From Sacculina carcini (lineage: Eukaryota > Arthropoda > Thecostraca > Sacculinidae): DNA of 64,000 nt. Below, piece after piece: positions 4,236-62,020 of this stretch; within the stretch, counting starts at the first letter, position 1; each line of letters opens with the position of its first letter. The DNA lies in assembly GCA_916048095.2 (NCBI GenBank), contig OU696591.1, positions 7,441,499 through 7,505,498 on the forward strand, in the 5' to 3' direction. Below the pieces are notes generated by a model. That model made no database searches. It was not told the origin of the DNA and worked only from the letters and a program-made list of their open reading frames with translations. The position numbers and the translations under genes are program-made.

Positions 4236-28139
<23,904 letters not shown>

Positions 28140-47106: not shown

Positions 47107-48270
47107 TTTCACAGCAAGTAAAATGACTACTGAAGTCAAATCTGGTGCTTCTGATGCGATACGGGATCGCCGTTGATCGTCGTACTCACAGACCTCGAAG
47201 TTCGCGATAGGTTCGCCGAGTTTTATCACCAAAACAAGGACTGGGTACACGTTTACACTGACGGGTCGAAGTGGCAAGACAGAGTAGGATGCGCGGTCAT
47301 AGTGAAAAACGTGCCACCTGAGCACCAGCAAACTTTTCGCTATCGCCTGCCGTCCTACACCACTGTGTTTCACGCGGAACTGTATGCAATCTACAAAGCA
47401 GTTGAGTTTGCGAGCTTTCAACATTACCCAAAGTTTTTTATCATATCAGATTCTAAGGCGGCACTTCAACATTTATCCAATCATTCATCACTCGATTTTA
47501 TTCACCATCGAATTTTAGACCTATATAGACAAATTGTGACGAGCGGCAAATCCTGTGTTTTTATGTGGGTGCCAGCTCACCGAGGAATCACTGGCAACGA
47601 ATTAGCGGATGCAGAGGCTAAATGCGCTCTCGAGGAGATCTCGATACAAAACTATCCTTTAAATAAGTCGATTACAGATGCGATCGTGGATAGTCATATT
47701 CGGCAATTTGTCAAGACCCGCTGGCAGCAAGAACGGCATCAATACAAACTGGGCGAGGTCACCGATGACGTTGGTCCCTGGTCAGTGACAGCTGTTCTAC
47801 CACGGAGAATAGAAGTATTACTGGCCAGACTGCGTATAGGCCACTCAAGGTTGACTCACGGGTTTTTAATGGAAAGTACTCCACCGCCTCACTGTTCTCG
47901 ATGTAATGCCGTTTTAACTATCGACCATATACTTTTAGATTGCATGTGCTATGCCGAGAGTCGAAAGCCATTGCACGAATACTGCCTCTATAAGAATATA
48001 TCATGGAATAGGGCGAGTTTGCTGAGCAGTAGCGATCCGCATTTGACCAAACATTTGGTTGAATACGTTTTTGTGACCGGTCTTGCCGAGGAACTGTGAT
48101 GTGCTTTAAATCATTTGCTTTTTATATCCTAGTCATTTCCACTCATATTTTTATCCTTTTTAAAATCTTGACGATTGACTTTTAACGACGATGTGACGCT
48201 GATCAGACTATTGTAGCGCAAAGTGGTCGGAATCGGCCGACGCGCTATACCAACAACAACAACAACAACG
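47107..48270 (+). mobile_element. LINE 3' fragment: RNase H domain, intact acidic residues, (AAC)n tail
   Basis: A 308-codon frame (to 48099) encodes an I-type RNase H: TDGS, HAELYAI, ISDSKAAL and GNELADAEAK carry the acidic catalytic set. A C-terminal knuckle CSRCNAVLTIDHILLDC follows. A 3'UTR of about 150 bp ends GCGCTATACC and (AAC)n at 48250-48269. 5'-truncated. Confidence 0.92.
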
Positions 48271-57621: not shown

Positions 57622-58721
57622 TTGGTCGAATGTTCTTGGCACCATTCATCGATCAATGTATACACAACAGCATTTTCAATACGACCCAACAATTCCGACA
57701 CTATACTATCCAAATTCAATCACATAGATTCTGGCCTTTACCAACATTTTGTCAAAATATTCACGGATGGCTCACAAGACCCCATAAGAAAAGAGTCAGG
57801 AGCTGCACTGTACGTACAGCAACACAACCGAATTCAAACGTGGAAATTTCATCGTTTTGCCTCCGTCACGCATGCCGAGCTTTTCGCAATTCAACAAGCT
57901 CTCCAGTACATTCATAACCATCTGCCACCGTCAGAAAACGTCGTCATTTACACCGGCTCGAAATCATGTCTCGACCTCACCAACCAGCCACAGCCAAAAA
58001 ATCATCAAGGTCAAATCAACATCATACATAGACGTATTTCTATATTGAATGAGTCATCCTGCCGAATACATCTCCAGTGGATACCGTCACATGTAGGCAT
58101 CATCGGCAACGAGATAGCCGACAACGCAGCAAAGAAAGCCTCCCATTCTGTAGACAATTTCTCGGAAACTCTCTTGTGGGAAGACCTCAGTGACGCCGTA
58201 GCACATTTCATCAACACAGAGTGGCGGCAACACCTGCAACAACTGCTCTCACAAGATTCATCGACGACACAGCGTGTTACCAACTCCATTCGGCAGCTGA
58301 CCAAATGCACTAATCGGCATCTCGATGTATCACTCTTCCGACTCCGATCTGGACATACCAAACTCAACCAGCATATGACGCGTCTCAAGCTCATCACGAA
58401 TGTAGCATGCCCGCACTGCGCAAAAGACGAGACTGTCGATCACGTACTTGTTCAGTGTTGCAAGTACGCTGACAGCCAGAAGCTGCTCCTCATGACCAAA
58501 CTTCAACCACGTGGTATACAAAACATCACTACTCCAATTCTGCTTGGTGGCAATATGAGCCCTGGCATGCATCTCTTCGTGCGACGACATCTATGCATTT
58601 TTTTCAAGAAACTGGTCTGATCGACCGCATCTGATACATTCTTAAAAGAATACTCAAAGGCCGATCGATTTCCGAGTGAAAATCTTGTTGCCTTCATCAA
58701 GAAACAACAGCAACAACAACA

Positions 58722-59335: not shown

Positions 59336-59757
59336 CAGTCCAGTATCGAGACATAATGCACTTTATGACGATAATTACTCTGACTATGAACTTTCCAAGC
59401 ATGCTATTGTCAGAATGACAATGGGGCACAAGCCCAACATCGACATTCCAAATTTGTCTTGTTCTCGTCTCCAAGACTCAATGTTGATCCGGACGGCGAA
59501 ATTATTATCAATAATACCAGCATATCCAGAGTCGAAACAATACATTTTCTTGGCGTGACACTCGATAGCAAGATATGCTGGAAAGATCACATCAATGGCA
59601 CAGCAAGAAAAGTATCAAAAGCTGCATTCATTCTTGGTAAAGCGAGACATTTACTTCAAAGAGAAGAAAGTTTAATACTTTACAATGCCCTGGTTAAACC
59701 CTATCTTGAATATGCTTGCGAAATATGGGGCCACACATGCAAATCATACATGAACAG

Positions 59758-60146
59758 TGTGGTGTAATCGTGTGTAGTGAGAGAGAGTGTCTGTGTGTGT
59801 GTGAAAGATTGTGAGTGCGTGAAAGTGTTAGTGTATCTGTGTGATCGTGTATAGTTGAATTGTATATTGCGTGCGAGAGTGTGTGAGCGAGTGTGTCTAG
59901 TTGTTTCGGTGTGTGTGTGCAGTTGTTTCGGTGTGTGTGTGTGTGTGTATGCGCTTGTGAATTGTCCATGCCCCGAAGCGGCGAGTGAATGACCGGCTCG
60001 CCGCTGATTGGTTCTTGCGGGCGGGCGGAGGAGAAATGAGTCTTGTTCGTGGTGCGATTGTGGTGTGACCTCTTGTAGGCGCGCGTGGGGCAGTGATGCC
60101 CACGCGCGCCTGTCTGTAATATATTTTAGTCTTTTTGTTTTTTACA
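59758..60146 (+). repeat. Left LTR of the TRIM-like element
   Basis: 389 bp, TG...CA ends, with the GC hairpin near its 3' end (60077-60111). Confidence 0.87.
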
Positions 60147-60855
60147 AGCTATTTCGGCCTTTTTGTTTTGGAATTATTTTTGTCTGCGACCCGGCTTCAG
60201 CAGCGGAGATGGTGCCTTCCAGCATCAGTAGCGGCCTACCAGCGGAGAACAGCGGTGGAGGTGCTCGGTGGCGTGTCAGGTTGGTGTGCAGGGGGACGGC
60301 AGTGCAGCATGATGCCGGCGGGAGGCAGCTGAGTAGCTGTGGCCGAGGGATGCTGGTCGTCTCGCCTGCACTGGTGTAGGGTACGTCGCCGGGCATCTAC
60401 AGGATTGTCGGTGGAGGCGACGATCGCTCGTGGAGGATGCTGGTGCTGGACGGCAGGTGACAGAGAGGGGCTGCTGAAGCCGGAGGAAAAAATGACGAAC
60501 GACGGCGACGGCGTGGCCTGTGTGAGCGGCGACGTCCCGGCTGTTTGCGGCAGGGTGCTGAAAAGCACTAGAGTCGACGGGAGCATAGTGGGTGCTGGGG
60601 TCGAAGTGTTGTGCCCTGTCGCGGCAGCCGGTGATGAAGAGGACGGCAGGCTGCGGCGGAGCACTGAAGAGCACGGGCGGAGGCGGGAGCGTGTTGGACG
60701 CTGGGGCCTGACGTGTTGTGTTTCGCCGCAGCGAAGGTGTGTGCATCTGGTGGAGGCCGTCGTCTAATTAGATTTTGGCTATTGGTTCATTTTTCCTGGT
60801 TTGCTTGGTTCGCGGTTTTTTGTTGATTTATGTTTCTTTGAAAACAGGTGGAGGT
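60147..60855 (+). other. Internal region of the TRIM-like element
   Basis: GC-rich. Long frames are open on both strands (60236-60767) but none resembles gag, pol or another family. Treated as noncoding. Confidence 0.5.
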
Positions 60856-61303
60856 GTGGTGTAATCGTGTGTAGTGAGAGAGAGTGTCTGTGTGTGTGTG
60901 AAAGATTGTGAGTGCGTGAAAGTGTTAGTGTATCTGTGTGATCGTGTATAGTTGAATTGTATATTGCGTGCGAGAGTGTGTGAGCGAGTGTGTCTAGTTG
61001 TTTCGGTGTGTGTGTCCAGTTGTTTCGGTGTGTGTGTGTGTGTGTGTGTATGCGCTTGTGAATTGTCCATGCCCCGAAGCGGCGAGTGAATGACCGGCTC
61101 GCCGCTGATTGGTTGTTGCGGCGGGTGAGGACTGTTTGTGTGTGTGTGTGTGTGTGTCCGTGTGTGCTCCCGTGTGACACGGTGTGAGCGGGGAGTCGTG
61201 TTTGTGGTGCGATCGGAGTGTGACGTCTTGTAGGCGCGCGTGGGGCGGTGATGCCCACGCGCGCCTGTCTCTAATATATTTTAGTCTCTTCAGTTTTGTT
61301 ACA
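60856..61303 (+). repeat. Right LTR of the TRIM-like element
   Basis: 448 bp. Nearly identical to the left copy except for a GT-rich expansion around 61135-61185 and small changes. GC hairpin at 61231-61265. Confidence 0.87.
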
Positions 61304-62020
61304 AACAGATTAGTGGTCTTGCAAAAACGAATAGTTAGAATCATATACAATTTACCACGAAACACACCATCCAAACCACTTTTCACCAGAGGAAAAATAT
61401 TGAATATTTCAGGTCTTATACACTTCAAAACATGTAAATTAATGTACAAAGTTTTTTATAAAAAATTGCACAAAAATCTACAGATTTGTTTTGAAACAAA
61501 TCCTCGTCGTCCCGACCTGTTCCTAGTTCAACACAGAAGAACATACGCCAGAAATCAAGCTTTGACCATAAACGGTGTGAAGCTGTGGAATGAATTGGTG
61601 AAGAACAAAGAAATAATTCTGAGTGACATGACGTCTATGAAAAAATTCACAACATGCCTATTCAACACCATTCTCTTAAAATATATGTAAATAACAAAGC
61701 CCAATGTTGACTCAATTGCCTGGTGGAGATTGCCGATCTTCTTATGATCTCATTATGAAAATGAGCTCTTGCTGAACTGTAAATTTAAGGTACAGCAAGC
61801 AACGCGTCTATTACTTGCCACTGTACATTTTCAACTGAACTAAACTGTATATATATGTTTTTTCATTTTCTTCTTTTATTTTATTTGTTCTTGCTTTTTT
61901 CAAGGGATATAAGCCTTTATGGCTTCCCCCGACACATGAAAATATGTTGTTTGGTGTTATTATATGTTTACTGTGTCGTTTTGAAATACAATACAATACA
62001 ATACAATACAATACAATACA

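Follow-up and report, generated by a model that had tools for sequence, protein, structure and literature searches.

A 64,000-nucleotide stretch of the Sacculina carcini genome (contig OU696591.1, positions 7,441,499 to 7,505,498; hereafter the window) carries one copy of a young, mobile, multicopy TRIM family, inserted into a LINE. Together with a Ty3/gypsy-like lineage of LTR elements, this family is apparently primed by a fragment from the 5' end of tRNA-Phe, as judged from the sequence that directly follows the 5' LTR, and an autonomous member of that lineage, here called family A, is its likely partner.

Primer choice is a defining step in the replication of LTR retroelements, and the modes described in the literature, as far as the available texts go, are mainly 3'-end tRNA priming, half-tRNA or internal-tRNA priming (Copia) and self-priming. 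If true, a 5'-terminal tRNA-Phe primer common to many gypsy-like families and a TRIM would add a further way to start reverse transcription, connect 5' tRNA fragments with retrotransposition, and explain reports of "no PBS" that come from searches for a site starting with TGG.

A TRIM insertion in a LINE and its genomic family

The LINE is interrupted by a 1,546-bp non-coding LTR element (59758–61303) with an exact 5-bp target duplication (TSD), AACAG. The features of the insertion and its host are the following.

59400–59757 (approximate start), plus strand: 5' part of the LINE, in a frame that is open across the empty site
59753–59757, plus strand: left TSD copy, AACAG, identical to the right copy
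59758–60146, plus strand: 5' LTR as delimited, 389 bp, with ends TGTGGTG...TTACA
60078–60110, plus strand: GC-rich inverted repeat of the distal LTR with perfect 12-bp arms, GGCGCGCGTGGG / CCCACGCGCGCC, and a 9-nt loop
60147–60158, plus strand: putative primer-binding site (PBS), AGCTATTTCGGC, the reverse complement of tRNA-Phe(GAA) nt 1–12
60147–60854, plus strand: non-coding interior, 708 bp, GC 59.6%
60840–60854, plus strand: candidate polypurine tract, GAAAACAGGTGGAGG, 13/15 purines
60855–61303, plus strand: 3' LTR, 449 bp, in which most departures from the 5' LTR begin at LTR position 257
61304–61308, plus strand: right TSD copy, AACAG
61304–61690, plus strand: 3' part of the LINE ORF, to its stop, in the frame that is open across the empty site

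From our reading of its translation, the 5' part of the LINE would encode a C-terminal region, from the ORF of a non-LTR retrotransposon; the 3' part alone (61304–61690) has no Pfam match. When the flanks are joined in silico around a single TSD, the LINE frame stays open for 249 aa. An earlier sequence-only reading of the window, which described a TRIM-like LTR element splitting a LINE with AACAG on both outer sides (59753–59757 and 61304–61308) and a frame kept open by excision, is thus borne out; its lengths are exact for the 5' LTR (389 bp) and off by one base for the 3' LTR (448 for 449 bp) and the interior (709 for 708 bp). It was also right that no gag or pol lies between the repeats: four ORFs of the interior and LTRs gave zero Pfam matches at E ≤ 0.1, by which coding remnants in the interior are ruled out for the ORFs tested. 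A search of 59700–61350 against Rfam, up to an E of 1, returned no match, with no hammerhead ribozyme and no tRNA-like or 5S-like sequence in the LTR; the idea of ribozyme or small-RNA content was dropped, as a whole-window scan at gathering scores likewise found none in the element.

Elsewhere in the window, two plus-strand ORFs with RNase H domains (47173–48099 and 57622–58620) are probably pieces of non-LTR retrotransposons, and a long low-complexity stretch at 9699–10881, with (IYLS)n reading frames, is a tetranucleotide simple repeat of about 1 kb.

With two direct LTRs, TG...CA ends and a TSD, the element has the structure by which a TRIM is defined. Its size (1,546 bp, LTRs of 389 and 449 bp) lies inside the definition of less than 4 kb, typically 0.5–1 kb, given in the available text of one source (PMC4558846), and above the narrower one of less than 1 kb with repeats of 100–250 bp in that of another (PMC6934838). 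Its interior is richer in GC (59.6%) than the window as a whole (41.1%). The candidate polypurine tract recurs at the same place in 20 TRIM copies (L009–L028), reading AAAAACAGGTGGAGG in 18, as in the window in one and AAAAGCAGGTGGAGG in one. The right arm of the inverted repeat contains the 8-mer CACGCGCG, which is found in the distal 5' LTR of 17/20 TRIM copies and also in a recombinant element, L041, described below; the repeat is possibly a structure or packaging signal in R/U5.

The genome that we searched comprises 264 Mb in 43 contigs, some stretches of which are N. With the 40 best candidates scored per search, an LTR query gave at least 50 matches and an interior query at least 41. 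At up to 2 mismatches, the PBS plus the start of the interior occurs 200 times and the 30-nt LTR start 582 times, both with reversed controls of 0, so that the other copies anticipated by the sequence-only reading do exist, and the two counts alone imply that solo or diverged LTRs are common. Both LTRs were looked for in 23 copies, of which 18 could be delimited, the script having found no boundary in the remaining 5; because 20 of the 23 are best matches to the window interior, this sample is biased towards intact, young copies. An exact 5-bp TSD is present in 14/18 delimited copies and absent in 4/18, the LTR pair shows no substitution in 10/18 (two of these with short gaps), and LTR length ranges from 309 to 461 bp. 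Interiors differ by a median of 1.0% over 190 pairs from 20 copies, the window copy being 2.0% from the rest; the 3' LTRs are more divergent, with a median of 4.9% among 16 copies.

The two LTRs of the window copy are identical at 364/389 aligned bases (93.6%), with 3 gaps. Up to LTR position 256 there is just one substitution and one 4-nt microsatellite indel; from position 257 on lie 24 of the 25 substitutions, together with a 54-nt and a 2-nt indel. This uneven spread marks a mosaic rather than an age signal, and to read the pair as having a single age would be wrong. Either recombination in the course of reverse transcription or a subsequent conversion event can produce the pattern.

An identity of merely 93.6% could also be expected if the paired repeats came from segmental or tandem duplication and not from insertion, an origin that we regard as barely conceivable: the TSDs are exact at the window and in 14/18 copies overall, the 200 PBS-interior matches are dispersed, the empty-site frame is open, and the LTR difference is that of a mosaic. 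The copies, TSDs and empty-site frame likewise contradict both outcomes that the sequence-only reading had named against itself, a lack of other copies and segmental duplication. The reading of 59758–61303 as a TRIM-like LTR insertion into a LINE is supported, because of the TSDs, the high-copy family, the identical LTR pairs and the open empty-site frame. As an observation apart, four LTR matches of 504–508 bits with alike layout stand 111–122 kb apart on contig C30 (3564108, 3685675, 3796716 and 3911205; L003–L006), which suggests large tandem segmental duplications there.

The putative primer-binding site and host tRNA-Phe

At the edge of the 5' LTR (60147) the bases do not begin with TGG, as a site complementary to a tRNA 3' end would, and in this respect the sequence-only reading, which reported no standard primer-binding site, holds. 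What it missed is the 12-nt site located there, where it had proposed to look for tRNA complementarity: the 12 nt directly after the LTR, AGCTATTTCGGC at 60147–60158, are the reverse complement of nt 1–12 of metazoan tRNA-Phe. The 5' end of human tRNA-Phe(GAA) is printed as GCCGAAATAGCTCAGTTGGGAG in the available part of a published source (PMC10505166).

Preceded by TACA, the 12-mer has 2,153 genomic matches at up to 1 mismatch (1,087 + 1,066), with a reversed control of 0. Among the first 30 of these loci (L029–L058), 10 have TRIM-like interiors (L030, L031, L036, L037, L039, L040, L043, L044, L046 and L051). Eleven of the other 20 were translated and, by our reading, gag-like frames follow the site in 9; such frames are broken or short in L029, L052 and L057 and absent in L049 and L053.

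A less motif-dependent test started from a 157-aa gag piece, itself taken from an element originally found by the PBS motif, with 150 of 2,147 candidate genomic matches scored. From these, 20 upstream regions at several divergence levels were chosen without regard to the PBS. The exact 12-mer stands at the LTR edge in 19/20 of them, after a CA-type end (one TA); in the remaining one, L076, it was not found within 3 mismatches. Because the bases 3' of the 12-mer vary from one family to another, conservation is limited to a sharply bounded block of 12 nt at the PBS position, whose last base is complementary to tRNA nt 1. The LTRs and their ends likewise vary between families while the PBS is constant.

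Across L029–L058 and L068–L087 we noticed several distinct gag families with unlike LTR ends and one common 12-nt PBS, and many near-identical copies among the gag matches listed point to recent activity of several LTR families. A hypervariable base after the PBS, suggested by a first sample as a run-off signature, was dropped on larger counts: of 75 family A copies, 69 have A at this base, 5 have T and 1 has C, with the following base more variable, and the 91 exact TRIM matches listed have C in 86 cases, T in 3 and G in 2.

The site is about as long as the 11-nt primer of Tf1 (available text of PMC7175516) and is not complementary to a tRNA 3' end, as would be expected of Tf1/sushi-type self-priming, in which the 5' end of the TRIM RNA itself would pair with the PBS. 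However, the PBS is identical between families whose LTRs and LTR ends differ, and the longest run of GCCGAAATAGCT in any of 12 stretches, 4 of them LTRs and 8 of them upstream regions of 600 nt from other families, is at most 6 nt (values under 5 unrecorded); a control with the 4 LTRs shuffled reached a maximum of 7 nt. The PBS complement has no copy at up to 3 mismatches in the 4 LTRs, nor at up to 2 mismatches in the 8 upstream stretches. Since the LTRs checked hold no long complement, self-priming is disfavoured, and we consider it very improbable.

On the side of the host, queries for tRNA-Phe were built from a metazoan sequence. Pattern searches and a 73-nt query found no intact tRNA-Phe gene in the assembly, which contains N stretches. 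Patterns for the 5' half, at up to 2 mismatches, gave 0 matches in the genome; a D arm plus anticodon pattern, also at up to 2 mismatches, gave 6, all of them tRNA-Tyr according to ARAGORN. The 73-nt query matched at two loci, confined to nt 38–72 and 38–67, and a 3'-half pattern returned the same two loci plus one match unlike tRNA-Phe. A further candidate for a hidden gene, C12:3214833 (L088), was rejected, as ARAGORN predicts no tRNA there and the 5' part is not Phe-like by eye. Genes resembling tRNA-iMet are present (15 matches with 93% and one with 90% identity to the human sequence). N stretches occur in 3/6 of the tRNA-Tyr loci, and because of such stretches the missing tRNA-Phe gene is not decisive; Phe genes may lie in N or be unassembled. 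As no intact gene was found, which is the weak spot of the case, we infer the primer. Separately, the window holds a borderline Rfam tRNA match on the minus strand at 12034–12106 (29.2 bits, cut-off 29), where, as in the rest of the window, ARAGORN finds no tRNA.

The two loci matched by the 73-nt query are pieces of tRNA-Phe captured in TRIM-like or gypsy-like sequence.

C19:4480881–4480915 (L060, 1501–1535), sense: tRNA-Phe nt 38–72
C12:8527627–8527656 (L061, 1501–1530), sense: tRNA-Phe nt 38–67

Both begin exactly at nt 38, inside retro-derived sequence. At L060 the piece reaches nt 72, where TRIM-like interior takes over, and its other flank is an inverted piece of interior; Rfam scored neither 3'-half piece as a tRNA. 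G37 of tRNA-Phe is modified, and the pieces could have formed if reverse transcriptase had jumped from the PBS to the tRNA acceptor strand, the two sharing TTTCGGC, and had halted at that base.

It is rather unlikely, in our judgement, that the 12-mer is another conserved signal (packaging, translation or protein binding), accidentally similar to tRNA-Phe, and that the true primer is a different one. The gene not found intact in the assembly and the reading of priming from sequence leave room for this, but the 12-mer occupies the exact PBS position as a 12-nt block with sharp edges across families and matches from tRNA nt 1; a chance match has, by our arithmetic, a probability of about 3e-6 (about 45 tRNA 5' ends against 4^12), and tRNA-Phe sequence was captured in two retro-derived loci. 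Priming by the 5' piece of tRNA-Phe is the reading that we follow.

A likely autonomous partner and a recombinant copy

Family A has 75 genomic places with the exact PBS and gag start. One of its elements, L059 (reverse complement), is a 4.57-kb gag-pol element with LTRs 98.4% identical over 309 aligned positions, stop-free gag (272 codons) and pol (1,014 codons) frames, and the TSD AAACG on both sides. For pieces of this element, Pfam matches to zf-CCHC, RVT_1 and rve exceed the curated cut-offs, those to Retrotrans_gag and Integrase_H2C2 fall just below and that to RNase H below; the protease piece has no Pfam match. The L059 pol frame also shows a strong DUF7047 match (E 5e-27) between the RT and RNase H regions. 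A phmmer search against PDB for the partner gave weak matches to retroviral RTs. The integrase follows the RT in pol, as in Ty3/gypsy and unlike Copia; by this order, also common to BEL/Pao and retroviruses, we call the family Ty3/gypsy-like.

Family A and the TRIM have in common the PBS, the TSD length, the LTR ends and an LTR core, which spans about 100 nt in an alignment of 6 family A and 2 TRIM LTRs. Of the autonomous partner sharing LTRs for which the sequence-only reading had proposed to search, family A has the core and ends; outside the core, the 5' part of its LTR is unlike that of the TRIM. The family A element has no plus-strand match to the TRIM interior, which rules out the TRIM as a simple deletion derivative of family A.

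In one copy, recorded as both L041 and L059, the 5' part of the LTR is of family A and the distal part of TRIM type, in both LTRs. We classified 48 family A records, two of which are one locus (L058 and L089), that is, 47 distinct copies of the 75; their distal LTR end is of family A type in 46 and of TRIM type in 1, the recombinant. The simplest account of L041/L059, as its sequence suggests, would be that the growing strand switched between a TRIM and a family A RNA packaged together, and such a transfer would support the copying of TRIM RNA by family A proteins. The recombinant is thereby genomic evidence for which autonomous machinery copies a TRIM, and family A is the likely partner; one recombinant is insufficient for calling it the main helper.

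Other autonomous families with the same PBS might mobilise the TRIM today, family A having recombined with it once. Several gag families do carry this PBS, and outside the shared core the 5' part of the family A LTR is unlike that of the TRIM; against this stand the common core of about 100 nt, the similar LTR ends, and the fact that family A is the sole gag family with a TRIM-type LTR end among the sampled loci, where most families are represented by one or a few loci. We hold such a helper to be possible though somewhat unlikely, and continue with family A as the partner.

Proposed mechanism and known systems

With fairly good confidence we propose a young TRIM family that is mobilised in trans by family A or a close relative and primed by a 5'-terminal piece of tRNA-Phe. 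The TRIM RNA would be packaged together with family A RNA, and reverse transcription would begin from the tRNA-Phe piece annealed to the PBS, with U12 as the 3' end of the primer. Position 12 of a tRNA lies inside the D stem, and a primer ending at U12 requires cleavage of the tRNA between positions 12 and 13. The nuclease is perhaps of host origin, or it may be the RNase H of the element itself, in the way that Tf1 cuts the 5' end of its RNA. A transfer of minus-strand strong-stop DNA from one RNA to another within R would follow and would account for the recombinant and perhaps also for the mosaic LTRs of the window copy; integrase would then insert the cDNA, making the 5-bp duplication. A broader version is tentative, at somewhat short of even chances: the whole Ty3/gypsy-like lineage and its TRIM parasite may be primed by a 12-nt tRNA-Phe fragment (G1–U12) released by a cut where the PBS duplex ends, a mode that would combine Tf1 self-priming with tRNA priming, with full tRNA-Phe kept in the particle and sometimes copied up to the modified nt 37, leaving nt 38–72 in aberrant copies.

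An animal TRIM, PbTRIM of ants, has reportedly been described before. According to the available texts, TRIMs are known in taeniid cestodes (ta-TRIM, PMC4558846) and bivalves (biv-TRIM, PMC6934838), and Helenus and Ajax TRIMs in Hymenoptera, vertebrates, bivalves and nemerteans (PMC10886601). The Sacculina TRIM has in common with PbTRIM, ta-TRIM and biv-TRIM that it is short and gene-less, with LTRs, a TSD, a putative PBS and a candidate polypurine tract at the corresponding positions, and a presumed reliance on an autonomous partner; it is larger than these, at 1.55 kb with LTRs of 309–461 bp, and differs in that a TRIM/partner recombinant was found. Ta-TRIM likewise has a candidate partner, lennie, with an identical PBS (PMC4558846, in part), and in the accessible portions of the bivalve and cestode papers autonomous partners are not found or merely proposed (PMC6934838, PMC4558846). 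The ta-TRIM PBS pairs with the 3' region of a Leu tRNA (PMC4558846, same portion), whereas that of the Sacculina TRIM complements the 5' end of tRNA-Phe; biv-TRIM is given without a clear PBS, but in two bivalve species the sequence just behind the 5' repeat matches the central part of tRNA-Tyr (PMC6934838, excerpted text). Matches away from the tRNA 3' end in animal TRIMs were thus glimpsed earlier, in bivalves.

As in the half-tRNA (hemivirus) elements Copia and Ty5, the PBS here would pair with an internal tRNA end made by cleavage and not with the CCA end. The Copia half-tRNA PBS pairs with the anticodon-loop region (PMC10886601, available text), unlike the present one, which would use tRNA-Phe nt 1–12 with a cut in the D stem. 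In the accessible texts, half-tRNA primers of plants are confined to Ty1/copia (PMC6317226), and FunCo1 of fungi, a Copia element, has a PBS that pairs with an internal part of tRNA-Lys (PMC5445492). The Sacculina elements fall outside the Copia half-tRNA type, since the PBS complements tRNA nt 1–12 and the partner RT precedes rve. They resemble Tf1/sushi in that the primer, derived from the 5' end of an RNA, would be very short (11 nt in Tf1, 12 nt predicted here) and would have to be released by cleavage where the duplex ends. Tf1 obtains its primer from the element mRNA (PMC7175516, in part), whereas here a tRNA would supply it; self-complementarity was sought in the LTRs checked and not found. 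The same source text reports that novel priming was proposed for Cryptococcus Tcn2-5 and that half of the ten Tcn families are gypsy-type (PMC7175516); these elements and the bivalve tRNA-Tyr cases count against full novelty of the priming site.

Like Helenus, Ajax and Cassandra (TRIMp3), the Sacculina TRIM would belong to those mobilised by autonomous LTR elements; unlike them, it has no tRNA-like or 5S-like sequence in its LTR (Rfam to E 1), nor is it a retrozyme, Rfam having matched no hammerhead in 59700–61350 up to E 1. In the available text of PMC10886601, the PBS regions of animal Helenus resemble Gypsy, and the TSD is 5 bp in Ajax and 4 bp in animal Helenus. Within the portions of open-access PMC literature covered by our search we found no description of a 5'-terminal tRNA-Phe PBS, and among the five open-access papers matched by the exact 12-mer or its complement none is, by title, work on retrotransposons. 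As to the undescribed family surmised by the sequence-only reading, a high GC content of the interior does not by itself argue for novelty; TRIMs of animals have been described before, the Sacculina family is a new member by structure, and its priming site is the variant part.
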